Assembly (NCBI GenBank): GCA_026874595.1
Contig: CM049322.1
Coordinates: 55,154,386 to 55,218,385 of the forward strand
Direction: 5' to 3'
Source: Sipunculus nudus
Taxonomy: Eukaryota; Annelida; Sipuncula; Golfingiida; Sipunculidae
DNA length: 64,000 nt
Shown: piece after piece, positions 266 through 64,000 of the stretch
How the letters are laid out: every line of letters begins with the position of its first letter
Numbering within the stretch: position 1 is the stretch's first letter
Notes under the pieces: model-generated
Told to the model about the DNA's origin: nothing
What the model saw: only the letters and a program-made list of their open reading frames with translations
The model's database searches: none
Made by a program: the position numbers and the translations under genes

Positions 266-575
266 ACACAGTTATAATTTACAACTTGTTTTTTGTTTGA
301 ATTCATAATTTAAATCTCAAGTTTGATTGATTTCAAAAGAAAGATTTTCAATAATCACTCTGTAAATTAAATATGTGTACAAATAAAAATAACTGCCAAT
401 ATTAAACACACAAGAAACTTACTTTATATTCAATGACTTTGAATGGGCTGGAAAACAATCCAGTTTATCGCCCACTACTTGTCATTTTATATCTCGTCCG
501 TCCACCAGACGATGTCACTAAGTAAAAGAATACTCGAAGCTGCAGTAGGGACAAGAAAAGTCCAGAATAAGCAAG

Positions 576-577
<2 letters not shown>
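266..577. other. AT-rich sequence, nothing recognised
   Basis: No repeat, motif or coding potential stands out. The open frame starting at 443 continues into the TA tract and translates it as alternating Tyr-Ile, so it is not supported as a gene. Confidence 0.5.

Positions 578-622
<45 letters not shown>
578..622. repeat. (TA)n microsatellite
   Basis: Uninterrupted alternating TA of about 45 bp, the first of some 27 such tracts in the window. Confidence 0.97.
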
Positions 623-625
<3 letters not shown>

Positions 626-1270
626 GTATGTATATATAAGACTACAAATGATGTCTTTGAAAAAAAGAGGAAATCATTAAGAAATAGCGAGATAGTATGT
701 CTAGATGGATCGAGAACAATGCTAAATGCTTGTGCATTTAACTTATGATATATTATTTCAAGGACCCAAAAGAAAGATTCGAGATTTAAGAGATTGAATC
801 AATATATGAAATAATAAATTTGTAACCAAAATTATGTTGTTGATTATATTTAAATTAAACCATATACTTTTCCAAAGCACATGATATATTATATGCAAGA
901 ATTAGATATACAAAGATTCAACCTAATTTGCGAAAACAGGAAAAAATAAATTATATAATAATTATTTGAATAAACTTAAAGAAAAACTGAAGGTTAATCT
1001 TAATTCGTAGGGGGAATCTTAAATCGATTTCAATCAGAGTCATTTCAGAAATATATCTGTCAAAAGTTGTTATTGCATCCCTGAACAAGTTGAATTAACT
1101 GTTCGCAATATCACAGAGTACATACATTTCAAAAAGGAAATCTAAGTTATTAAAATAAGCGTAAATCACTCGCTTTATGTACACATCTCCCTGCAGTGTG
1201 TTCTCAGTACATGTTCCAGTACAGGTCTCATTCATGACTGTCTGTTAACACGTCATTAATGTACAAGAAA
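623..1270. other. AT-rich sequence, nothing recognised
   Basis: Very AT-rich unique-looking DNA with frequent stops in all frames. No gene, RNA or mobile-element signature was seen. Confidence 0.5.
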
Positions 1271-1274
1271 TGTT

Positions 1275-1765
1275 ATCTCGAGGCGTGCTAAGGTTATTCT
1301 GGGCGCATACTACCGTTACTCTCGGTGCATATTACCTTTACTAGGGGCGTACTACCGTTACGCTTGTGGCATACTATCGTTACTCTTGGGCATACTACCG
1401 TTTCTCTTGGGGCGTAAACCGTTACTCTCGGGGCATACTTTCGTTACTCTCGGGGCATACTACGGTTACTCTCGGGGCAAACAACGGTTACTGTTATGGC
1501 GTACTTTCATTACTCACGGAGCATACTATCGTTACTCTCGGGGCGTACTACATTTACTCTGGGAACGTACTTTCGTTACTCTCGGAGCATACTACCATGA
1601 CTCTCGGGGCATACTACCGTTACTCTTAAGGCTTACTTCCGTTACTCTCGGGTGTAAATCCGTTACTCTCCGGTCGTTGAACGTTACTCTCGAGGCAACT
1701 ACCGTTACTTTCGGGACGTTTTACATTATTCTTGGGGTGCACTATCGTCAGTCTCTGAGCTTATG
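1275..1765. repeat. 22-bp minisatellite, about 21 copies
   Basis: A diverged tandem array with unit roughly 'gcatactaccgttactctcg' plus 'gg'. Spacing of the cggggc blocks (for example 1451 and 1473) gives a 22-bp period. Units vary by substitutions and small indels and decay at both ends. Because 22 is not a multiple of 3, the array cycles through three frames every 66 bp; the open frames at 1366-1629 and 1386-1766 are by-products, not genes. Confidence 0.9.
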
Positions 1766-1769
1766 ATCA

Positions 1770-2901
1770 CGCGTAAAAGTTCAATTTGTTTAAAATTTAT
1801 CTGCGAGAAAACAGGTACAGATAATTGTAGAAGCATGGATAACGTCTCACATTGTTAAGGTGGTATATATTTATAACCACATTTAATATAGCTAATGGAC
1901 TTGTACGAGACATCAGTGACAAACTGGGTATAATTTCATTTCACCGTCTAGTGCTGAGACCACTCCATAATTTTAATTATAAAGTTGTATCCGTGAAAGA
2001 GAGTGACACTTCACAGGTGTGATGGTGTTCAATGTAACCATGTCAAGGGGTCCGTCCATCACTCTAAGACATAAGACATCTCGTAGTCCTCAAAGCAAGT
2101 CCTCAAGTGTGTCACGCGCACAGTCCTCAAGTGTGTCCCGCGCATTGTCGTCTATATCATGTCTGTCCGTTATATATCTTAGAGACAACTTAATTAACAA
2201 TACATGTATTTGATGGAATCTATTCAGGGATTGTATTTTGATTAGCTCCTTACATGACCAACCTTATATATGTCTTCAGTTTACCTTATATAAATATGTT
2301 TGTGTACAATTTAAGGTCGATAAACCCGCAAACATCGACCGTTTCAAGGAAATTTGTCAAAATTAGAATTACTAAATAGAAATAGTCCAATAAAACATTG
2401 TTTTGTTTTATTAATTCGTCACATATTTCTTGTCAATTAAACCGACTGATACATCCATTTCCCATTGCTTACATTTCCTCCTGGAATCAGGATTTCTCAC
2501 CTGCCTACTCAACCTTAAGGCGTCGTGTTACTGGTAAAGAATCTTCATCATGAAGCCTTTTTACTTGTTTGACCTTTAAGTCGTGTGGTTTAACATGAAG
2601 TCCTTACAGATGAGGCTAAATAGTAGAAATCGTTTCGATTTTGCCATGAGTCATTTTTCACGGTGCACTTATTATACACAATGTCATCGTGATCGATTCA
2701 ACAGGAATTGGAAATACAATCCTGTTTAAATACAGTAACCGGTGCAGTCCCGATTAATAAAAAATATTTTTTTCTAGTTGTGCAGTAGGGTCCCTGCCTT
2801 TGACACTGAAATGCTTATTTCATGGCCCATGTAATACCATGTGAGGTTTTAAGAATAGAATAAATCCACCATGCCGTCGCCCAATATATTACACACACAC
2901 A

Positions 2902-2905
<4 letters not shown>
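1770..2905. other. Anonymous AT-rich sequence
   Basis: No recognisable gene. A short direct repeat ('tcctcaa..agtgtgtc', near 2095-2140) is the only local structure noticed. Confidence 0.5.
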
Positions 2906-2906
<1 letters not shown>

Positions 2907-2955
<49 letters not shown>

Positions 2956-3063
2956 GGAGAGAGAGAGAGAGAGAGATGATGAGATGGGATAGAGAGAGAT
3001 ACACACGGAGAGAGATAGAGAGAGGGTGGAGGGAGAAACAGAGAGAGAGAAAGACAGAGAGAG
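2907..3063. repeat. Compound (TA)n-(GA)n microsatellite
   Basis: A TA tract at 2907-2936 passes directly into a GA-rich polypurine tract, nearly pure to about 2976 and interrupted to about 3063. Frames on both strands are open through it (low-complexity Tyr-Ile, Arg-Glu or Ser-Leu) and are not genes. Confidence 0.95.
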
Positions 3064-3985
3064 CGTGCAGGTGAATAGAGAGTCAGACAGACGCTATAAA
3101 AAAACAACAAAAATTAGTTGAGAGAGAAAACAATAAAAAAGTGAAAAAACATACAAAGAGAGACACAAAATGCAAATCAGATTTGTTGCACATTACGGGT
3201 TTGTCTCCTGTGATGGCACACGACACGACACTGGCTTTTATTACAGATACATAAATTAAAGAGAATCATCCTAACCATAATAGTGTAATTATACACTGAC
3301 AGGCAGCGAGCACGGTGACATGCCCTTTTCTTTACAAGCTAAATAATTATACATCTACAGGTAACAACAGGACCAGTTACCTAAATTTCTTTCTTGTATT
3401 CATTTACGTTCATTAATATTATATTTATACAGACTCTTGCACTATTTATGTTATAACAGGACTTGTCCTTAAAAATAGTTTCTCAATCTGACCTCCGAGT
3501 CTGTTTAACTGTGTAATTCGTGTATTTTTTTTAAATTTATATAATATATATATATATACATACATATAAAAACAAATGAAATTGGATCTCAGCTTTACAA
3601 ATAAATACAGTTTCTCATGCTCATGTGAATCTTTGTTATGTGTACTCAAGCCAAATACCAGATCACAAATATCAACCTTGCATTCTGGATGAAATATATC
3701 AGGGGTGGAGGTGGAGGGGAATTTGAGTCGGGCACCTCGATCCTCTCTTTATCTTTGTATGCGAGGGTTTTGTATAAAGTCCACTAACAAACCTATGTCA
3801 CACTGACATGGTGTTTAGCACCATATGCAAACATATATCCACCCAGACAGAATATCTCTTTTAATATTTGCCTATAGCTCTCGTTGTAATAAAGAGAAAA
3901 CGCAACTCCCGGAAAACAATACATTATTATTCCATTTTTCTGGTTAAAATATGCTTCCCCTCATCATTAGGCTTTAACAATCTAA
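3064..3985. other. Anonymous AT-rich sequence
   Basis: Contains a short TA/TACA stretch at about 3541-3565 and nothing else recognised. Confidence 0.5.
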
Positions 3986-12371: not shown

Positions 12372-12595
12372 ACCTAGGGATCTGGACAAACGGGTGGTCA
12401 AACGTGCGGTTCCCTCAGCTGGCGATCTTGGTTCGGTTCCCGGCGAGGCTATGAGCATGGGCCCGCCTCGTTTTGGTGGTTTTCTCCGGGTTCTCCGGTT
12501 TTCTCCGTCCCTATAGATCATCCGAGCTATGGAGAGTGCCTTGAATTAGTTCCTATAACTAATTGTACAATCCATTTAAATAAATAAGCTTAGGC
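12372..12595 (+). mobile_element. tRNA-derived SINE, family B, copy 1
   Basis: The head carries a B-box-like 'cttggttcggttcccggcg'. The body has two 'ggttttctcc' blocks separated by 'gggttctcc', and the tail reads 'agctatggagagtgcc', then 'ctaattgtacaatcca' and an AT-rich end. Diverged relatives occur at 47,808-48,030 and 57,118-57,315. The ggttttctccgggt block recalls conserved central domains known in several animal SINE superfamilies, but I cannot assign one. Confidence 0.7.
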
Positions 12596-12599
12596 TTAT

Positions 12600-13407
12600 T
12601 ATTAGTATAAACAGCATCTCAAGGAAAACATTTCAGTCATGATCATTATGTTATGATATACTTAGATCTTCCTTTAATCCTAAAAGAACATAGAATCATG
12701 CACCATCGCGGTATCGTCCGCTTAAATACGGAAATTGTGGAGATGGCCGTAATGGAGATCAGGGCCTGCACAGTATGTGTTTGGTGCTTGGTGCTTTGGT
12801 GATATCCTTGTTGGTGATACATCTCGAGGCGGCTCAAACTGATTGTCGTAAACTGTCAAATCTATAAATAGCGTGCGCTGTTCTCTCACTCTATTTTATA
12901 CGGCTATACTAAATTATCGGGAGGTCCAAAATGCGTCACCGCCGACACGTTATGTCGTAAACTGTACCCTAAATCATCCCACACACTCTGAGCAATTTAA
13001 CGCTCCGTATACAGAGTGTACGGCATGACAACCGTGGACGCCCACACTTTGTTTTATACCACCTGTGTCACCTGTCTTAACGAAAGAGTTTAGCAATCAT
13101 GCAAAACTCGGCATTGGTTTTCATGTGAATATGTAAGGAAAAATAATTTTATATTTGACTATTTAGTGTTCCAGGACAAAGAAAGAGTTCTAATAATCAC
13201 AGTTGTTTTAAGTTTCGAAACACAGACATTATGGGTGACATTTTAGTTTTGAGTATTTAAGGACCATCAATACGGATACATGAGATATTATCATCAATTA
13301 GTATTAATATCTTACATAAAAAATTTTAAATATCAAAATTGTAACGTAAGTATGAATGGACATCTTTCATATGATATCTTTAGGGAATAAGAAGAAAATA
13401 GTCCGTT

Positions 13408-47450: not shown

Positions 47451-47457
47451 GTTCAAT

Positions 47458-47704
47458 CACAGGCGCTTGAATCCCTATTTATAATAAAGTCTTCATATTT
47501 CCAATGTTTTTAGAAATACTTCGACGGAATCAGGTCAAACGACCCAATAATAAAACGGTCATACCATGCTATCACTTGTATTGTGTCATAATACAATGTT
47601 ATGACCGTTTTATTATTGGTCGTTTAACCTGATTCCGTCGAAGTATTTCTAGGAACATTGGAGATATGAAGACTTTATTATAAATAGGGATTCAAGCGCC
47701 TGTG
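47458..47704. mobile_element. Fold-back MITE, 247 bp
   Basis: Nearly the whole element is one inverted repeat: the left arm starting 'cacaggcgcttgaatccc' is inverted in the right arm ending 'gggattcaagcgcctgtg', with arms of about 105 bp and a loop of about 36 bp that holds its own small hairpin. Direct repeats 'gttcaat' (47,451-47,457 and 47,705-47,711), extendable to 'tggttcaat', flank it as a 7-9 bp target duplication, compatible with a hAT-type origin. No coding capacity. Confidence 0.85.
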
Positions 47705-47807
47705 GTTCAATTAAGGATGTTCCTAATAGACAGATAGTCTTATTACAAAGGTGGTCATTCAGACAGGTTCCCCTGTACTTAATTCAAATAAGCTATATTC
47801 TGATTAG

Positions 47808-48030
47808 AGTCTGGGCAGTCGAGGCATTAAACACTGGGCTCTCTCCGATGTCGAACCGAGTTTGAATCTCGTTGTGGCTATGAAAGTGACCTGTCCAGAT
47901 TCGGTGGTTTATTTCGGGGTCTCCCGATTCCTCCACCTCAAGACTACTGAACGCTCCCACCTGAGCCATGGAGAGTTCCTAGTGTAAGTTATAATAACGA
48001 TTTGTACAATCCATGAAAAATAATTTATAA
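47808..48030 (+). mobile_element. tRNA-derived SINE, family B, copy 2
   Basis: A B-box-like 'gagtttgaatctcg' is followed by 'attcggtggtttatttcggg', and the tail 'agccatggagagttcc' plus 'cgatttgtacaatccat' matches the tail at 12.5 kb. It is more diverged than copy 1. Confidence 0.6.
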
Positions 48031-48231: not shown

Positions 48232-48336
48232 TTAACGCTCCTATTTAACAAAGAAAACATCGAAAGCGATATGGGCCATAATATGATCCTTTAATTTTCA
48301 ACCCAACATACAATTGGGCCAAATAATAAAGGCCCA
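48232..48336 (-). repeat. Split direct repeat B2 (3' end of the Ngaro-like element)
   Basis: About 105 bp, identical to B1 at 48,673-48,777 apart from one base (catcgaaag against catggaaag). It contains three GGCC-centred motifs (tgggcc, tgggcc, ggccca). Confidence 0.92.
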
Positions 48337-48481
48337 TCACATCGTTGCACGAGGTAACATAAATACAGGAAACAAGCAACACATAGCAAAACAACGCAAA
48401 TAAGTACACCGAAATACGTGAAGTAAACCGACCAGAAGAAAAACAGACACATATCGCAATAAATGGACAGTGGGTGGGCGG

Positions 48482-48673
48482 GACACCGACAAAACACAAC
48501 GTGCAACTGACTGGCTGGGGTGTGAACAGTGATTACTGAAGCGTGAGTTCCCCGGCCCCGTGTATAACTAAGCGGGTTTAAGGGGGACGGCTCCACCTGA
48601 ATAGATACGGGTTGCCAGGTCTGCAAGATTCAACTTTAAGCGTTTACAATAATTAACTTCTTTAATTTACATT
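48482..48673 (-). repeat. Split direct repeat A2 (internal copy)
   Basis: 192 bp, identical to A1 at 52,580-52,771 except one base (cgtttacaat against cgttaacaat). It directly abuts B1, sharing 'tt'. Confidence 0.95.
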
Positions 48674-48777
48674 TAACGCTCCTATTTAACAAAGAAAACA
48701 TGGAAAGCGATATGGGCCATAATATGATCCTTTAATTTTCAACCCAACATACAATTGGGCCAAATAATAAAGGCCCA
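48673..48777 (-). repeat. Split direct repeat B1 (internal copy)
   Basis: About 105 bp, matching B2. It lies just downstream of the recombinase gene in the sense direction and joins A2 without a spacer. Confidence 0.92.
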
Positions 48778-48829
48778 CAGTTGGCCGCTTGACTGAGCGC
48801 CAACTTTATGGCCCAATTTAATTAAAGGG

Positions 48830-49856
48830 CTATTTGAAGAAATTCAAATAGCAACCTCTGAACGGTGCCGAGCTTAACCTGCGTTGTAAAGCCATCCGTC
48901 TCGCAAAACCAGTTACAACACTGACAGGAGCTTGTATATATCGTTCATATGCATTACTCGACCATCTGCCTAGCAGCTTGATCTCCCAATCCTGCATACC
49001 TGCCGCTGCTGCATCGGTGGCACCACCTCTACGGAAAGAGTGACCACTATATTGGTCAATTTGAAATCCTGCTAATGCTAATAGCAGCCGAACATGGTTA
49101 ACAAAAAGAGACTTTGTAAGAATGCATGTATTCTCGAGTTTAAACAACGGTTCATCCTTGTTCGCACCATATAGTGAACCTCGTTGATTCATGTACTGCC
49201 GCATAGAACACACGGCACAGATGCTTGTCTGAGAGCAGCCGATGTTGATTACGTAGCCACATCTAGCTTTGTCAGTTTTTGACCCCTTCAATTTTAGAGT
49301 CAGATAATACATGCCCTGCTCATTCTGAAGCAAATGTACATCGCCAACTGTTAAATGGTTAGCCCTATCAAACGAGGACTGCGATGGGACACAAAATTCC
49401 GCCGCTCTCAGACATGCAAAATAAGCCAGTGTCATGGCTGTCCAAAACAAATACGAATCATATGACACCCCTATCTTTTCTCTTAGCTGAAGCAGCATAG
49501 AATAAGTTATGGGGAGTTTCTGCTTTGGCGGCCCCGAATCATATTTAAGACCTGCCAATGCCCGCTTTAGGCGGAATTTGCCTACGAGCGGGTCGCCATA
49601 TGCTTCTTCGATATGCAAAGATCTCACTGCTGAAAGATAAACTAATATGCTAGAATGTTTGAGACTCCTCCTATGTTACAAACATCAATAATATATCCTC
49701 ATTAGCTGGTAACAGTTTAAAGTCATATTGATCACAAAACTTAATGTACTGTCTCTGTGCTGAAGTATATGTTTTTCTGCTGTTTACCCTGAGACCATTC
49801 TTGACAAGCTGACAGGCTTCTGCGTACAGAGCACCCGTGACATCTGAAATACACAT
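48830..49856 (-). CDS. Tyrosine recombinase of the Ngaro-like element (one +1 shift)
   Basis: The enzyme would integrate the circular DNA intermediate by strand exchange through a phosphotyrosine. The N-terminal part (49,856-49,674, 61 codons) looks like a core-binding domain (RKTYTSAQRQYIKFC). It ends at TAG (49,671-49,673), and the protein continues in the +1 frame through LKHSSILVYLSAVRSLH into the catalytic domain. Numbered from the Met at 49,627, catalytic candidates are R74 (in ACLRAAEF), H196 and R199 (GHSFRRGG), W222 (LLGRWSS) and Y230 (ERYI), the R-H-x-x-R-W-Y set. The break is either a one-base insertion or a programmed shift. The gene begins about 20 bp after the RT stop. Apart from this break it appears complete. 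Confidence 0.85.
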
Positions 49857-49875
49857 TATACATTAAATTAAAACT

Positions 49876-51627
49876 TCAAATCAGCTGATGTACTGGTAAA
49901 GGTAATGGCTTAGTCATTTGTGTGTCAGCTGATGGATGAACCAGCCGAAAACGCCTCAGGTCACCTCTGGACAACGCATCCGCGACTTCATTCTTGGCAC
50001 CTGGCACATGTATCGCCGAACACTCAAAACCGTATGTTGCACATGTAAAGAATAATGCACGCATTAGTTTCATTATTGCACAGTCTCGTGAGGATCCTTT
50101 CTGCAGTACGTGCACCACTGCTTGGTTGTCACATTGAAACAGGACACGTTTTGTCGTCAACAGCTTACCCCATGTTGCCGCAGCTTTTGCAATAGCAAAG
50201 AGTTCCCTGTATGTAATTGAATGTTTGGAGTGTTCATCAAGTCTGTCGAATTCCTCATACAACCATGCATTACAAAACACTGCACCATACCCGTAATCTG
50301 AGGCGTCCGTCCACAAGTGCAAGCAAGCGTTACCTGTCCACTGTTCTTCATAGAACAAACTTTTCCTGTTCCATCCTGGTAGGTAGCTAAGCCACCACAT
50401 GATGTCGCTTTTTGCAGCTTTGTTCAGTTTTACACGGTGATGCAGAAACCGTAACTTTCTTGACGCTTCTATTAAACGACGAGTGAATATTTTAGCCGGT
50501 TTCACTACACGTGCTACAAATGTTAACTTGCCGATCAGAGACAAAAGATTCCTCTTTGTCAAGCTTCTAACATGCAACCATTTACGTAACTCTGTTATCG
50601 TGTCTTCTACACGTTCGGAAGACATTGACAACTCCATTCTATTGGAGTCTATTATTATCCCTAGATATTCGAGCCGTGTAGTTGGTTTTACTACCTTTTC
50701 TGGTTGCACAGCAAAACCGAGCTTGTAACAGCATTCTAGCATGGTCTCTAGATTTATATCACACAGAGGGGTTAACGGAGGGCCGCATGTGAAATAATCA
50801 TCTAGGTAATGTTCAACCTCAGAGACTCCGTATTTTTTCATAATGAATTCCAGCCCATCTGCATAATCATTAAACAGTTTCGGGGAACTTCTAAGACCAA
50901 ATGGTAACACCAAATCCACATAATATTCACGCACTAAATTACCCGAAGAATCATGCTTTTCCCACGTAGATCCTAATAGTTCCCAGTCATCCGGGTGCAC
51001 TACTATATGTTTGAAGGCATCTCTTAAGTCTAACTTCGCCATGAGGGTGCCTTGACCATAGCGCTTCACAACGGAAGTTATATCGTCGATTGTTATGTAC
51101 CGAAGCGAATGTTCGTCAGAAGGAATAAAGTCATTTACGGACTGGCCCGGGGGCCATGATAGATCGTGGATGATCCGATATTTTCCTGTAGAGCGCTTTT
51201 TAGGGAATGCGCCCATCGGCGACGCGACAAAGTTTACAAAAGGAGGACTATAAAATGGACCAGCTTTGCGACCTAAACGCACATCCTTGTCAATGGCTGT
51301 TTGTACGGCGGCGTTATATTTATTAGCTGATGGCCAATTATGGCTGTGTCTTGGAGTTCGATGACCTTTGTAACCAATACGAACACCGGTACTGATACCC
51401 TGGACGAGTTTATTTGCTAAGGATCTATCCGGATGACTGGACAGCCCTACCTGCCATTCTTTAGCATTCAAGGGTGACACTGTTCTAATTACAGTGTTGG
51501 CATTTGTATAACGGCTCAGGACCTCTGCACTGTCTACAGACGTGGGCTCGTTTACATGACTGGACGCGACATCGACCGGACTGGTAGTTATTACATCCCT
51601 CACGCTGCTCGTGGTACCAGCGGTCAA
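49876..51627 (-). CDS. Reverse transcriptase-RNase H of the Ngaro-like element
   Basis: 583 codons from the first Met. It would copy the element RNA into DNA and degrade the template. RT fingers motifs lie at about 125-165 (SPMGAFPKKRS, YRIIHDLSWP), motif A at 196-205 (MAKLDLRDAF, D200), the LPFGLRSSP motif at 241-249, and the catalytic YLDD at 274-277. RNase H follows, with D441 (HLWTDAS), E475 (TYRELFA), D500 (FQCDN) and D550 (VADALSRGD). No integrase or protease was seen. The N-terminal 100 residues are low in conserved motifs. The frame starts inside the gag-like ORF (143-bp overlap, +1 frame), so the Met at 51,627 may not be the true start; expression could use a frameshift or internal initiation. 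All key catalytic residues are present. Confidence 0.93.
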   Translation of the reverse strand: MTAGTTSSVRDVITTSPVDVASSHVNEPTSVDSAEVLSRYTNANTVIRTVSPLNAKEWQVGLSSHPDRSLANKLVQGISTGVRIGYKGHRTPRHSHNWPSANKYNAAVQTAIDKDVRLGRKAGPFYSPPFVNFVASPMGAFPKKRSTGKYRIIHDLSWPPGQSVNDFIPSDEHSLRYITIDDITSVVKRYGQGTLMAKLDLRDAFKHIVVHPDDWELLGSTWEKHDSSGNLVREYYVDLVLPFGLRSSPKLFNDYADGLEFIMKKYGVSEVEHYLDDYFTCGPPLTPLCDINLETMLECCYKLGFAVQPEKVVKPTTRLEYLGIIIDSNRMELSMSSERVEDTITELRKWLHVRSLTKRNLLSLIGKLTFVARVVKPAKIFTRRLIEASRKLRFLHHRVKLNKAAKSDIMWWLSYLPGWNRKSLFYEEQWTGNACLHLWTDASDYGYGAVFCNAWLYEEFDRLDEHSKHSITYRELFAIAKAAATWGKLLTTKRVLFQCDNQAVVHVLQKGSSRDCAIMKLMRALFFTCATYGFECSAIHVPGAKNEVADALSRGDLRRFRLVHPSADTQMTKPLPLPVHQLI

Positions 51628-52543
51628 ATCTATCAGATTGGTGGAACTTTGTTTGGATTTGGTTTTCAGTCTCCTCCATCTTGGCTTGTTGCGAGCGAAA
51701 GGGGCATTTTTGGACTACGTGATCAAACGATTTACATCTGAAACACTGAGACGTATTACGTTTCACCGCTGTTGCATCCAAAATTGTGACGTACATGTTA
51801 GAATCAATTTCATCAAAGGCGAATGGATGGAGGCTACCAGCAATCTGACTGCGGTAACGCACATCGTAAGCCATAACGGCAGACCACAAATATTTTCTGT
51901 CACATTCATGAATGAAGGTTCTGTATTTTGCGAAACTATTATATTTATCTGGATACTTCTGCAGTACTACCATCTCGTATCGAGACCACGCTTGGAGCCA
52001 TATGGAAAAATTATCTAATGTTCTACGTGACTTCTTTTGTCGAAATTCTAAATTATCACTGACAAACACAGCCTCGGCTTCTCTGTTAACTGGTTCTGAA
52101 GCAATATATAGAAAGTCAGGCAAATGAACAAACTCACCATTCTGTGCAGCCTGGACATTCTTTTCAGGGATGACCGCCCCGAGCACGTGAACGTTTCCGC
52201 GCGAAACTGGTGTGTCAGCTGGCTTGCGTGGAGGTTGTCCTTCTGAATTCGTGTGTTGCACAGAAATTTCGTTTTCTGAGTTTTGTACTCCCAGAACACA
52301 TTTAGCTAAATTGTCATGTGAAGCTTTCAAGCTTTCTATACCAAAATTCAACTGTTGCATCAAAGAAACTAAAGCTTCCAGAATTTGGTTCGTTGACGGC
52401 TCTGTTTCTTTTATATCTTGTCCCATATCGTCCGGGTTTTTTTCGATTTCGAACTGCCGAGGACATTCCTTGCCTGTAGGGCCGTCGTGACCTTTGCAAG
52501 GAAATTTACAGGTTGTGCAAGTCCTTACTTTATCCGAACTCAT
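51485..52543 (-). CDS. Gag-like nucleic-acid-binding protein of the Ngaro-like element
   Basis: 352 codons, starting about 37 bp downstream of A1 in the sense direction. It probably binds element RNA. A Cys-rich N-terminus (CTTCKFPCKGHD, residues 9-20) precedes a probable helical segment at about 52-85. Near the C-terminus is a CCHC zinc knuckle, C267-x2-C270-x4-H275-x4-C280, then a C317-x7-C325-x4-C330-x3-H334 pattern matching a CCCH zinc finger, followed by two more Cys pairs. The first ATG after A1 gives this start. The last 143 bp overlap the RT frame. The frame has no internal stop. Function is inferred from position and zinc motifs; sequence similarity to a named Gag was not recognised. 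Confidence 0.8.
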   Translation of the reverse strand: MSSDKVRTCTTCKFPCKGHDGPTGKECPRQFEIEKNPDDMGQDIKETEPSTNQILEALVSLMQQLNFGIESLKASHDNLAKCVLGVQNSENEISVQHTNSEGQPPRKPADTPVSRGNVHVLGAVIPEKNVQAAQNGEFVHLPDFLYIASEPVNREAEAVFVSDNLEFRQKKSRRTLDNFSIWLQAWSRYEMVVLQKYPDKYNSFAKYRTFIHECDRKYLWSAVMAYDVRYRSQIAGSLHPFAFDEIDSNMYVTILDATAVKRNTSQCFRCKSFDHVVQKCPFRSQQAKMEETENQIQTKFHQSDRFDRWYHEQREGCNNYQSGRCRVQSCKRAHVCRQCRGPEPLYKCQHCN

Positions 52544-52579
52544 GGTGCGATGACTTAACTAACGATTACATGTACGTGC

Positions 52580-52771
52580 GACACCGACAAAACACAACGT
52601 GCAACTGACTGGCTGGGGTGTGAACAGTGATTACTGAAGCGTGAGTTCCCCGGCCCCGTGTATAACTAAGCGGGTTTAAGGGGGACGGCTCCACCTGAAT
52701 AGATACGGGTTGCCAGGTCTGCAAGATTCAACTTTAAGCGTTAACAATAATTAACTTCTTTAATTTACATT
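52580..52771 (-). repeat. Split direct repeat A1 (5' end of the Ngaro-like element)
   Basis: 192 bp, matching A2 with one difference. Its outer edge at 52,771 joins host DNA 'gaaaacag'. In this family the 5' repeat is expected to hold the promoter; no TATA box was identified. Confidence 0.93.
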
Positions 52772-52900: not shown

Positions 52901-52959
52901 CCAGAATCTAGAACGGGAACCACGTCATTATGTCTGATATCTTTAATTAGTATTGGGAA

Positions 52960-53095
52960 GAATGAGGGATGTCCTTTACAGGCGTCAATACGGAAAGCAT
53001 GCGTCTTATATCAGTGAATACAAACACAGGAGGTCCTTTCCGTTGTAACGTCACCCACTTGTATATTTGATACGTGATGACGTTAACGTGTGAAA
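52960..53095. repeat. Uninterrupted relative of the insertion-site repeat
   Basis: 'gcatgcgtcttatatcagtg' matches 'gcatttgtcttatatcag' left of the element, and the following part matches the sequence right of it, so this copy shows the empty-site arrangement. Confidence 0.65.
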
Positions 53096-56289: not shown

Positions 56290-57115
56290 TTAAATAGTGT
56301 ACCCTTGATACCTAATCAATAAAAAAAACCTGTAACCCGGTAGACAAAAAAAATAAGACTGCATGTTTTATCGTTCGGTCATCTCCGTCAATAGAAAGTG
56401 TCCCAAACAATACATGGATCTAAGCCAATTATTTTAATAAAATAATGTATTTTCGACACAGATATACAACCCTGCTAGGTTTCATGGTAGAAAGACAAAT
56501 CTCAAGCCTATAACAGGGTGAATAATTATAATTGTCGCACGTGATGACTTATTTGTAACAAGAAAGGAAGAATTCTGTATTTCTTATTAAGAATTAATGA
56601 CTAAGTTTGAAGAGCTATAACCTATTTCTTTTAATCATATTTTAAAAAAGTTTTGTTCGATGAATGAGAACCTGGAGTGTCAATAACAATCCATTGGAAC
56701 CTCTGCCCACAATTTCAACGTTGGGTGTAAGTAGGGTACGGGGGAATTTACGGGATTTTCCCTTTCAGAAATATAAACTTCCTGGCTTTACATTAAACAT
56801 ACAGACACACAACATTGAGAATGGGAGTAGAAAAACGTTTGGTGAACGACCACGCAGCATTAGTAACATCAAAGTAATCAGGGAATGCAACTACATCTCT
56901 CTACAAAACTCTCGAGTGGTCTTCGTAAAAGTAGGAAAAAAATGCAAGTGCAGGAAAATGTGTGCCGGAATGATCACTAGTGAGGATATTTTCAGCACTC
57001 TCTGGACTAGTCCATTAAAATTCTTGGCACAGGAGGTACAGGAGAACATACTGACTGTACACCAGAGAATGCTTGTTCATATTATTTTTTATACCCATCA
57101 CTTTTGTTGTATGAT
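56290..57115. other. Anonymous sequence
   Basis: A 211-codon plus-strand frame (56,664-57,299) crosses most of this interval but runs on into the SINE at 57,118, has no domain I recognise and no obvious flanking gene signals. I treat it as unsupported. Confidence 0.35.
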
Positions 57116-57117
57116 AA

Positions 57118-57315
57118 AGGTGAACATTCGACCGGTTAAACACTTGGCTCATTCCTCTGGCGACCCTCGCTCCATACTCGGCGTGGCAACGAGAATGTGT
57201 TGTCGCGTCCAAGGACGGTGGTTTTCTCCAAGTTCTATTTTTTCATCAGCTTATATACACAACAGAGCGCCATCACTTGAGGCATGGAGGGTTCCTTGAT
57301 TAGTTGTAAAAACTA
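57118..57315 (+). mobile_element. tRNA-derived SINE, family B, copy 3 (diverged)
   Basis: Shares 'ggtggttttctccaagttct' and the tail 'aggcatggagggttccttga', 'ttagttgtaaaaact' with copy 1 at 12.4-12.6 kb. The head is strongly decayed. Confidence 0.55.
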
Positions 57316-57694
57316 AAGCCTTTGTCTCATTTCAAAGTCTTCAGATAACCACAGAGTCGTTACAGTTATACATTGTACCTGGCACTGAACGTCCGCTTAC
57401 GGCTGGATGTTGGCTTCCTTTTCTAATTAACGTTACAGCGTAAACGCACTGCAATTTTGCCTAAATGGACCTACGTTTTCCTATTAGCTAGAATGCAATC
57501 AATATAGTTCTCCTTTTTCCTAATGAATAATTTAAATGGCCCCTTATATAGAGACCACTCTGCCAATACAAATTTTAAAGTTATCCTCCATAATTTAAAT
57601 AATTTAGTTCTTTCTCCCCCTGCAGTCACTAATATACCTCTTTGTGAATTAGCATAATTCCATAATCGCAATTTCTATTACGAGAGGGAATGGA

Positions 57695-60696: not shown

Positions 60697-60955
60697 GTTA
60701 GGGCATGGCCTTTGCAGGAGAATGACAGCATGTAGTCCTTTCAAATATATTTCATCAGAATTGTTTCAAGGTAAATTACATAGACATTGTTTTATTGCGG
60801 TAAGGACTCCACGGTTTAGGTAATATTTTGTAAGCATAGCCATGTGAAATGTAAACAGGTGCTTCCTTGAAAAGTTACAATTTTTTATTTTAAATTTGAC
60901 ACTTAAAACAAGTAGTCCCGACTGTCCTCATTAATCCACTACAGGAGCTGTTTGT
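60697..60955. repeat. Duplicated unique segment, copy 1 (upstream of the 31-bp array)
   Basis: 'gggcatggcctttgcaggag' (60,701) to 'acaggagctg' (60,941) recurs at a constant offset of 1,098 bp (61,799 to 62,039) with only a few substitutions and no indel. Confidence 0.95.
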
Positions 60956-61790
60956 AGAGAGTATCTGTTTTTGATGGATGTTTTGAAGAGAGGGTCTGTT
61001 TTTGATGGATGTTTTGTAGAGAGGGTCTGTTTTTGATGGATGTTTTGTAGAGAGGGTCTGTTTTTGATGGATGTTTTGTAGAGAGGGTCTGTTTTTGATG
61101 GATGTTTTGTACAGAGGGTCTGTTTTTGATGAATGTTTTGTAGAGAGGGTCTGTTTTGGATGGATGTTTTGTAGAGAGGGTCTGTTTTGGATGGATGTTT
61201 TGTAGAGAGGGTCTGTTTTGGATGGATGTTTTGTAGAGAGGGTCTGTTTTGGATGGATGTTTTGTAGAGAGGGTCTGTTTTGGATGGATGTTTTGTAGAG
61301 AGGGTCTGTTTTGGATGGATGTTTTGTAGAGAGGGTCTGTTTTGGATGGATGTTTTGTAGAGAGGGTCTGTTTTGGATGGATGTTTTGTAGAGAGGGTCA
61401 GTTTTGGATGGATGTTTTGTAGAGAGGGTCTGTTTTTGATGGATGTTTTGTAGAGAGGGTCTGTTTTTGATGGATGTTTTGTAGAGAGGGTCTGTTTTTT
61501 ATGGATGTTTTGTAGAGAGGGTCTGTTTTTGATGGATGTTTTGTAGAGAGGGTCTGTTTTTGATGGATGTTTTGTAGAAAGTGTCTGTTTTTTTATGGAT
61601 GTTTTGTAGAGAGGGTCTGTTTTTGATGGATGTTTTGTAGAGAGGGTCTGTTTTTGATGGATGTTTTGTAGAGAGGGTCTGTTTTTGATGGATGTTTTGT
61701 AAAGAGGGTCTGTTTTTGAAGGATGTTTTGTAGAGAGGGTCTGTTTTGGATGGATGTTTTGTGGAGAGTGTCTGTTTTTGATGGATGTTT
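60955..61790. repeat. 31-bp minisatellite, block 1 (about 27 units)
   Basis: The unit is gtctgtttttgatggatg + ttttgtagagagg, with variants tttttgatgg, ttttggatgg and ttttttatgg arranged in runs. Most units carry gtagagaggg. The minus strand has no stop in any of the three frames, producing a 303-codon frame with a 31-residue super-repeat that is not a gene. Confidence 0.97.
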
Positions 61791-61794
61791 TTGG

Positions 61795-62053
61795 GGTAGG
61801 GCATGGCCTTTGCAGGAGAATGACAGCATGTAGTCCTTTCAAATATTTTTCTTTAGAATTGTTTCAAGGTGAATTACATAGACATTGTTTTATTGCGGTA
61901 AGGACTCCACGGTTTAGGTAATATTTTGTAAGCATAGCCATGTGAAATGTAAACAGGTGCTTCCTTGAAAAGTTACAATTTTTTATTTTAAATTTGACAC
62001 TTAAAACAAGTAGTCCCGACTGTCCTCATTAATCCACTACAGGAGCTGTTTGT
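61795..62053. repeat. Duplicated unique segment, copy 2 (between the two array blocks)
   Basis: Second copy of the 60,697-60,955 segment; differences include tatatttcatc against tatttttcttt. The duplication unit is 1,098 bp and includes block 1 of the array. Confidence 0.95.
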
Positions 62054-62054
62054 A

Positions 62055-64000
62055 GAGAGTATCTGTTTTTGATGGATGTTTTGTAGAGAGGGTCTGTTTT
62101 TGATGGATGTTTTGCAGAGAGGGTCTGTTTTTGATGGATGTTTTGCAGAGAGGGTCTGTTTTGGATGGATGTTTTGTAGAGAGGGTCTGTTTTGGATGGA
62201 TGTTTTGTAGAGAGGGTCTGTTTTGGATGGATGTTTTGTAGAGAGGGTCTGTTTTGGATGGATGTTTTGTAGAGAGGGTCAGTTTTGGATGGATGTTTTG
62301 TAGAGAGGGTCTGTTTTTGATGGATGTTTTGTAGAGAGGGTCTGTTTTTGATGGATGTTTTGTAGAGAGGGTCTGTTTTTGATGGATGTTTTGTGGAGAG
62401 GGTCTGTTTTTGATGGATGTTTTGTGGAGAGGGTCTGTTTTTGATGGATGTTTTGTGGAGAGGGTCTGTTTTTGATGGATGTTTTGTGGAGAGGGTCTGG
62501 TTTTTGATGGATGTTTTGTGGAGAGGGTCTGGTTTTTTATGGATGTTTTGTGGAGAGGGTCTGGTTTTTGATGGATGTTTTGTGGAGAGGGTCTGGTTTT
62601 TGATGGATGTTTTGTGGAGAGGGTCTGGTTTTTGATGGATGTTTTGTGGAGAGGGTCTGGTTTTTGATGGATGTTTTGTGGAGAGGGTCTGGTTTTTGAT
62701 GGATGTTTTGTGGAGAGGGTCTGTTTTTGATGGATGTTTTGTGGAGAGGGTCTGTTTTTGATGGATGTTTTGTGGAGAGGGTCTGTTTTTGATGGATGTT
62801 TTGTGGAGAGTGTCTGTTTTTGATGGATGTTTTGTGGAGAGTGTCTGTTTTTGATGGATGTTTTGTGGAGAGGGTCTGGTTTTGATGGATGTTTTGTGGA
62901 GAGGGTCTGTTTTTGATGGATGTTTTGTGGAGAGGGTCTGTTTTTGATGGATGTTTTGTGGAGAGGGTCTGTTTTTGATGGATGTTTTGTGGAGAGGGTC
63001 TGTTTTTGATGGATGTTTTGTGGAGAGGGTCTGGTTTTTGATGGATGTTTTGTGGAGAGGGTCTGGTTTTTGATGGATGTTTTGTGGAGAGGGTCTGGTT
63101 TTTGATGGATGTTTTGTGGAGAGGGTCTGGTTTTTGATGGATGTTTTGTGGAGAGGGTCTGGTTTTTTATGGATGTTTTGTGGAGAGGGTCTGGTTTTGA
63201 TGGATGTTTTGTGGAGAGGGTCTGTTTTTGATGGATGTTTTGTGGAGAGGGTCTGTTTTTGATGGATGTTTTGTGGAGAGGGTCTGTTTTTGATGGATGT
63301 TTTGTGGAGAGTGTCTGTTTTTGATGGATGTTTTGTGGAGAGTGTCTGTTTTTGATGGATGTTTTGTGGAGAGTGTCTGTTTTTGATGGATGTTTTGTGG
63401 AGAGTGTCTGTTTTTGATGGATGTTTTGTGGAGAGTGTCTGTTTTTGATGGATGTTTTGTGGAGAGTGTCTGTTTTTGATGGATGTTTTGTGGAGAGTGT
63501 CTGTTTTTGATGGATGTTTTGTGGAGAGTGTCTGTTTTTGATGGATGTTTTGTGGAGAGTGTCTGTTTTTGATGGATGTTTTGTGGAGAGTGTCTGTTTT
63601 TGATGGATGTTTTGTGGAGAGTGTCTGTTTTTGATGGATGTTTTGTGGAGAGTGTCTGTTTTTGATGGATGTTTTGTGGAGAGTGTCTGTTTTTGATGGA
63701 TGTTTTGTGGAGAGTGTCTGTTTTTGATGGATGTTTTGTGGAGAGTGTCTGTTTTTGATGGATGTTTTGTGGAGAGTGTCTGTTTTTGATGGATGTTTTG
63801 TGGAGAGTGTCTGTTTTTGATGGATGTTTTGTGGAGAGTGTCTGTTTTTGATGGATGTTTTGTGGAGAGTGTCTGTTTTTGATGGATGTTTTGTGGAGAG
63901 TGTCTGTTTTTTTGATGGATGTTTTGTGGAGAGTGTCTGTTTTTTTGATGGATGTTTTGTGGAGAGTGTCTGTTTTTGATGGATGTTTTGTAAAGAGTGT
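62055..64000. repeat. 31-bp minisatellite, block 2 (about 63 units, continues past window)
   Basis: The same unit as block 1 with a 31-bp period (for example 63,361 and 63,392). Variant runs change along the block: gtagagaggg to about 62,390, then gtggagaggg to about 63,300, then gtggagagtg to the end. Two zones with an extra G (tctggtttttgatgg) occur at about 62,490-62,710 and 63,030-63,190, each containing one ttttttatgg unit. Confidence 0.97.

Follow-up and report, generated by a model that had tools for sequence, protein, structure and literature searches.

A young family of probable Ngaro-type retrotransposons in Sipunculus nudus and a recurrent joint at the end of its A1 repeat

What kind of retrotransposon lies on the minus strand of a 64,000-nt stretch of Sipunculus nudus DNA (assembly GCA_026874595.1, contig CM049322.1; hereafter the window), and how are the ends of such an element rebuilt when it multiplies? 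An earlier note, made from the letters of the window alone, had described a nearly complete, recently inserted Ngaro-like element with split direct repeats, named A and B. I analyzed this element together with the whole assembly (1.4265 Gb in 153 contigs; hereafter the own genome). In all likelihood, the window element belongs to a young family of Ngaro-type tyrosine-recombinase retrotransposons with many copies, of which it is one. Added here to the earlier description are the family, its target preference, and the broken tyrosine recombinase (YR) of the window copy; as Ngaro-type elements go, this one is ordinary. The part of the finding that most deserves attention is a joint at position 191 of the A repeat (A191), where A1 is fused to the body of most 5′-shortened copies.

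Anatomy and class of the element

The element runs A1, gag, reverse transcriptase/ribonuclease H (RT/RNase H), YR, B1A2, spacer, and B2 over 4539 bp of the minus strand. Thus, the order and the strand given in the earlier note were confirmed, as were its counts of repeat differences, which alignment puts at 1/192 bases between A1 and A2 and at 1/105 (the note had "about 105") between B1 and B2. The pooled difference is 2/297, with a 95% interval of 0.08–2.4%. The note had also seen in the internal B-A junction a mirror of a circle junction, and this was borne out: when B2 is placed directly before A1, the product lines up gap-free with the internal B1A2, with 294 of 296 bases alike. As for the limits, set at 48233–52771, the length stood but the position did not; since family copies start with ATG and end with GTTAA, the element lies one base off, at 48232–52770. 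All 19 counted left ends start with ATG, the base before it being variable, and 18/19 right ends finish with GTTAA, the remaining one with ATTAA. The terminal repeats are direct, and the internal repeats lie downstream of the YR, which has the same orientation as the RT. None of the 25 longest of the 98 inverted pairs in the window links the element ends. RNA folding of the 3′ repeat block was no better than that of shuffled sequences (z 0.04).

The arrangement A1-[open reading frames]-B1A2B2 is that of Ngaro elements. Those of zebrafish, sea urchin, Xenopus, fungi, and Cafeteria resemble the window element in having A1-[gag, RT/RNase H, YR]-B1A2B2, no methyltransferase, and a YR with HxxR and Tyr motifs. 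The window element fits a published description of Ngaro elements, including the lack of a methyltransferase and the position of the internal repeats downstream of the YR (PMC4157794). A Xenopus Ngaro has an SGNH hydrolase (PMC9210276), for which there was no match in the three window open reading frames (ORFs) scanned. The earlier note had stated that the split-repeat order defines Ngaro and PAT elements. The anatomy holds, but the order is not exclusive to these two, since VIPER shares it; VIPER/SIRE of trypanosomes belong to a kinetoplastid lineage and are likened to the window element by description only (PMC6681497). DIRS1-like elements have RT/RNase H and YR in common with it, but they are described with inverted terminal repeats, internal complementary regions, and a methyltransferase (PMC3266345), whereas the repeats of the window element are direct.

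PAT elements are closer in anatomy, having split direct repeats and, in Pat1-like ones, a gag zinc finger (PMC4157794). In contrast to the window element, however, they are described with a methyltransferase. A scan for the Dam methyltransferase gave no match in the three window ORFs (E up to 1), nor did one of the family copy L009, covering its RT/RNase H and YR frames (E up to 0.05). Since the gap between RT/RNase H and YR is about 200 nt or less in those of the copies L009–L028 that have both parts, there is no room for a methyltransferase. A Dam methyltransferase search of the own genome gave 11 matches. In an RT tree of 10 rows, all from the own genome, a 100/100 branch parts the window element, L029, L031, L033, L034, and L035 from the methyltransferase-bearing L047, L049, L053, and L055 (the L029 and L053 rows are under half filled). 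Of the observations that the earlier note had named as refuting a Ngaro assignment, those looked for here did not refute it, neither by the place of the RT in the tree nor by a methyltransferase in family copies. In L031, L033, L034, and L035, the YR lies close behind RT/RNase H or overlaps it. The RT of L029 is a relative of that of the window, with 52% identity in the own-genome search and 56% in the tree alignment. The following were kept out of the tree: L030, L032, L050, L052, and L054, in which no RT frame was found, L051, which has no 100-aa frame, and L048. In the last (contig C130, 90356 bp), the Dam match has neighbouring ORFs which, judged by eye, resemble those of bacteria or phages, and the contig may be contamination of the assembly. 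No relatives were found in viral_contigs, genome_contigs, or phages, including by degenerate YR and RT patterns.

Could this be a PAT-type element of the DIRS clade that has lost its methyltransferase and only looks like Ngaro? A methyltransferase-less lineage near Pat1 has been reported in Caenorhabditis briggsae (PMC4157794), and a PAT lineage of that sort would share the anatomy of the window element. The Ngaro assignment is further weakened in that it rests on anatomy and a 10-row own-genome tree without a named Ngaro, DIRS, or PAT RT, in that the single window YR falls below the Pfam cut-off (0.068), and in that the predicted YR structure is poor (mean pLDDT 40.2) and was not used further. 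On the other hand, a profile built from eight YRs of the own genome matches Cre recombinase at 7.9e-9, and the window YR has R, HxxR, GRW, and Tyr motifs, which I take to be the catalytic boxes. Against a PAT origin, the window RT groups with families whose YR closely follows RT/RNase H, apart from all four methyltransferase-bearing rows. Its identity is 31–35% to the four other no-methyltransferase families versus 24–30% to the methyltransferase-bearing rows, among which DIRS1-like and PAT types are not distinguished. A PAT element without its methyltransferase is thus quite improbable.

A young family and its target site

How many relatives does this Ngaro-type element have, and how old are they? 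Searching the whole assembly, a check named in the earlier note, revealed near-identical copies spread over the genome: at least 79 RT matches, of which at least 26 places are at 88% or more (hand count, window included), and at least 41 matches to the B-A junction. Two RT matches of the family, at C17:55669397 and C17:55678315, have equal score and identity and lie about 9 kb apart, roughly 0.5 Mb from the window copy; they probably reflect a local duplication. I compared 31 copies with their flanks, 20 collected via RT (L009–L028) and 11 via the B-A junction or a partial RT (L036–L046). The latter were picked because a full RT match was lacking, and this second set is therefore enriched in shortened copies. 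Further places of the family, outside the 31, are known on C17 (two), C12 (one), and C15 (two).

In pairwise comparison of the 18 copies whose RT ORF is full (window included), the differences amount to 0.05–2.5% over 153 pairs, with a median of 1.1%, and the ratio of nonsynonymous to synonymous differences (pN/pS) is 0.42 over these pairs, which are not independent. The window RT ORF is 0.44–2.0% from the 17 others, and 5 of its 1836 nt are private substitutions. Both repeat pairs are near full length in 16 copies (L013 and L017 were excluded as partial), of which three have no repeat difference at all. The main subfamily variants are found in both repeats of their carriers (B66 in 10/10, B68 in 12/12, A158 in 6/7, A129 in 4/5). 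In contrast, variants of single copies lie mostly in one repeat (76/89), only 9/49 in A and 4/40 in B being in both. From this difference it follows that each cycle yields matching repeats, which drift apart later, so that their similarity bears on age. One set of variants goes the other way: four A variants and two B variants, each with two carriers, never occur in both repeats of a carrier. An old family kept similar by gene conversion, with repeats uninformative on age, would also have similar repeats, and, on sequence alone, conversion between A1 and A2 may have taken place. However, the RT ORF, which is single in each element, is also very similar between copies, and single-copy variants are mostly confined to one repeat. 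Such an old family is therefore very improbable. Judged from the copies, the family holds as young and multicopy, and the earlier note's claim of a young window copy of recent origin is sustained by the RT ORF distances, the shared subfamily variants, and the near-identical copies genome-wide; current activity, which the note also allowed for, does not follow from them.

YR elements, Ngaro among them, are expected to insert without target site duplication. In the window, the old repeat that flanks the element has an uninterrupted copy about 240 bp away (52905–53073), and the flanks, once joined, align to it with no gap where they meet. This empty site scores 59.8. The best of 1000 random joined pieces (drawn from outside the flank and paralogue regions) reached 18.3, and the best of 1000 shuffles 19.3. 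An earlier control of 500 random joined pieces reached 84, above the observed score; this was taken as due to pieces possibly including the paralogue itself. When the joint was shifted from −6 to +6, the score fell at every shift except 0. Since the joined flanks align gapless to the paralogous unit, the insertion looks clean, without duplication or loss of bases at the target, as judged from a diverged paralogue. Across the family, possible target duplications of at least 3 nt were found in 3/25 two-ended copies, versus 1.65 expected by re-pairing; with the paralogue, this agrees with the Ngaro mode of insertion. A left end entered the count if its A1 extended to the first bases and opened with ATG. 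Among 29 such ends, T is at −4 in 24, T at −3 in 23, and A at −2 in 22, and the full TTA is present at 12/29 versus 3.0% in the flanks. This preference resembles the B end of the element (GTTAA). With 19 ends there was also a sign of a T at +2 (p 0.014), but with 28 it became weaker (13/28, p 0.066).

Shortened copies and the A1 joint

It was found that 13 of the 31 compared copies lack a 5′ part of the body yet keep A1. In these, A1 ends at position 190 or 191 in 11 copies, at 186 in one, and at 126 in one. The body starts differ in all 13, ranging from position 431 to 3710 of 3810, and the 11 copies with the A190–191 joint use 11 different body positions. If joints were random across A, the chance of 11/13 within three bases would be about 1e-18. 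In the RT-selected set (L009–L028), 4/20 copies are shortened with A1, all four at 190–191. The likeness of A1 and A2 stops at position 191–192, where base 192 is C in both, possibly by chance. Because 11/13 A1 repeats are fused at A190–191 to 11 different body positions, the joints suggest that A1 joins the end of the cDNA at a terminus that is fixed, independently of homology. In the proposed model, end formation includes annealing of portions of the repeats (PMC6681497). Such annealing would not be open to a cDNA that ended within the body. In the portions of the Ngaro literature available, no mention was found of a fixed A190–191 joint or of such an A1 step. Among Cafeteria Ngaros, 5′-shortened forms without ORF1 and isolated AB repeats have been described (PMC8547959). 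One shortened master as the ancestor of all shortened copies was rejected, since all 13 body starts differ, and splicing was judged unlikely, as no common acceptor precedes the body joints by eye.

I tentatively propose, as something that may be so, that A1 can be attached to the 3′ end of first-strand cDNA, wherever reverse transcription stopped, by an end-to-end step that does not depend on homology, either a template jump or a ligation. The partner nucleic acid would end at A191, and A1 would not always be restored by annealing of overlapping repeat ends. Short copies capped with A1, and perhaps host mRNA captured between A1 and the body, would be by-products. Is this needed, or could the joints stem from DNA deletions of the ordinary kind in copies already inserted, given a hotspot for breaks where A ends? 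The joints do look like end joining, with 1–4 nt common to both sides in 9/13 and 1–10 extra nt in 4/13, and other internal deletions are present in the family. Moreover, A1 ends elsewhere in two of the 13 copies, at A186 and at A126, and no A1 was seen in the fetched stretch of two further shortened copies, L025 and L044. However, a hotspot would need 2-nt precision in 11/13 copies with 13 different partners, and it would need to coincide with the end of the A1/A2 similarity. A single YR deletion removing the Tyr region is common to L020, L027, and L039, three loci with three different 5′ states, as is expected if shortening occurs at new insertions. Later deletions at a hotspot thus seem unlikely as the source of the fixed joint. 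Since the same deletion recurs at three loci with three 5′ states, this YR-defective lineage probably moved in trans, with recombinase from other copies.

The joint also appears in an unusual copy, L013 (also L063; C10:43242300-43249498), whose A1 is split into A through 191, an insert of 1412 nt, and A from 166 into the body, so that 26 nt of A (166–191) stand on both sides of the insert. The insert has an apparently intronless open frame of 253 residues, antisense to the element. Its residues 7–251 align to 275–508 of the Abl interactor 2 chain 4n78_F (1.2e-26), and the frame matches the SH3 chain 2ed0_A (3.5e-31). Thus, the insert has the look of a processed host mRNA, which may either have been captured during replication or have come in as a nested retrocopy, with a 26-nt duplication. 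The left joint at A191, as in the shortened copies, favours capture. The sense strand of the insert ends in a T run rather than an A run, which does not favour a nested retrocopy. The spacer-B2 part was found at seven further places (L056–L062), and in L056, L057, L058, and L060 it is A-spacer-B alone in the fetched stretch. These four are comparable to solo long terminal repeats, to the isolated Cafeteria AB repeats, and to the SIRE of VIPER, which corresponds to A2 to B2 of the latter (PMC6681497).

The window copy and the proposed cycle

Features of the window copy are listed in Table 1. The YR of this copy is split over two frames because 8 nt are missing between its N-terminal and catalytic parts. 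The 8 nt are present at this site in 20/20 compared copies (L009–L028), so the deletion is private to the window copy. The copy is, judging by its reading frames, unable to make a continuous YR, and "nearly complete", as the earlier note had put it, overstates its coding state. It probably arose from an intact relative and then lost the 8 nt, although an assembly error may instead be the source of the deletion. In the same 20 copies, the YR is open from the N-terminal motif through Tyr in 13, and the gag, RT/RNase H, and YR frames are all open in 5 (judged from motifs and stop counts, leaving the end repeats aside). The RT/RNase H ORF overlaps the gag-like ORF in a different frame; a Pfam scan of the latter gave no family above its cut-off.

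Table 1. Features of the window copy and its empty-site paralogue, in window positions
Feature	Position	Strand	Basis or remark
A1 repeat	52580..52771	minus	1 mismatch in 192 vs A2; family rule puts element start at ATG, 52770
gag-like ORF, 352 aa, CCHC pattern at residue 267	51485..52543	minus	pattern match
RT/RNase H ORF, 612 codons stop to stop	49876..51714	minus	RVT_1 2.9e-14, RT_RNaseH 6.7e-6
YR N-terminal piece, 63 aa, frame differs from catalytic part	49674..49862 (about)	minus	coordinates counted by hand
YR catalytic part	48830..49675	minus	R box, HxxR, GRW, and Tyr motifs present
B1 repeat	48673..48777	minus	1 mismatch in 105 vs B2
A2 repeat, joined directly to B1, circle-junction-like	48482..48673	minus	repeat alignment
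Spacer, 145 nt, between A2 and B2	48337..48481	minus	repeat coordinates
B2 repeat; element end GTTAA at 48232	48232..48336	minus	repeat alignment and family end rule
Uninterrupted paralogous repeat unit showing the empty target site, outside the element	52905..53073	minus	flank alignment

Elsewhere in the window, an inverted repeat lies beyond the B2 end (47452–47710; 93-nt arms, 94% complementary, 73 nt apart). An old dispersed repeat, about 200 bp long, is present in three much diverged copies, at 47745–47975, 12375–12600, and 57110–57330. A long array of a 31-bp tandem satellite with strong strand skew occupies 60951–63997, reaching the window end.

How might the family multiply? The element would be transcribed to RNA, and the gag and RT/RNase H proteins would carry out reverse transcription to give a circular DNA with a B-A junction. 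The YR would then integrate the circle at short TTA-like sites without target duplication. The A1 of a new copy would be made from the A2 of the parent, with a fixed end at A191, while its other end would be the point where the cDNA stopped. The join might be a jump of the RT from the cDNA end to a template ending at A191, or a ligation of two ends. The observed parts of this cycle are the anatomy, the B-A junction matching the joined ends, the target site that is clean as judged from a diverged paralogue, the TTA preference, the main subfamily variants shared by both repeats of a copy, and the one YR deletion at three loci.

Ngaro-type end regeneration is known from proposed models, and in the case of DIRS-1, the mechanism is, according to a review, not fully proven by experiment (PMC5633606). 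Where a young family has many copies that are nearly identical, some of them 5′-shortened independently, end rebuilding has left a natural record, in which the positions of the joints tell the fixed end from the variable one. If the end-to-end attachment of A1 is true, the annealing model (PMC6681497) needs an additional homology-independent step. The 5′-shortened Cafeteria Ngaros, discussed through the choice of integration site (PMC8547959), could then gain a second explanation.

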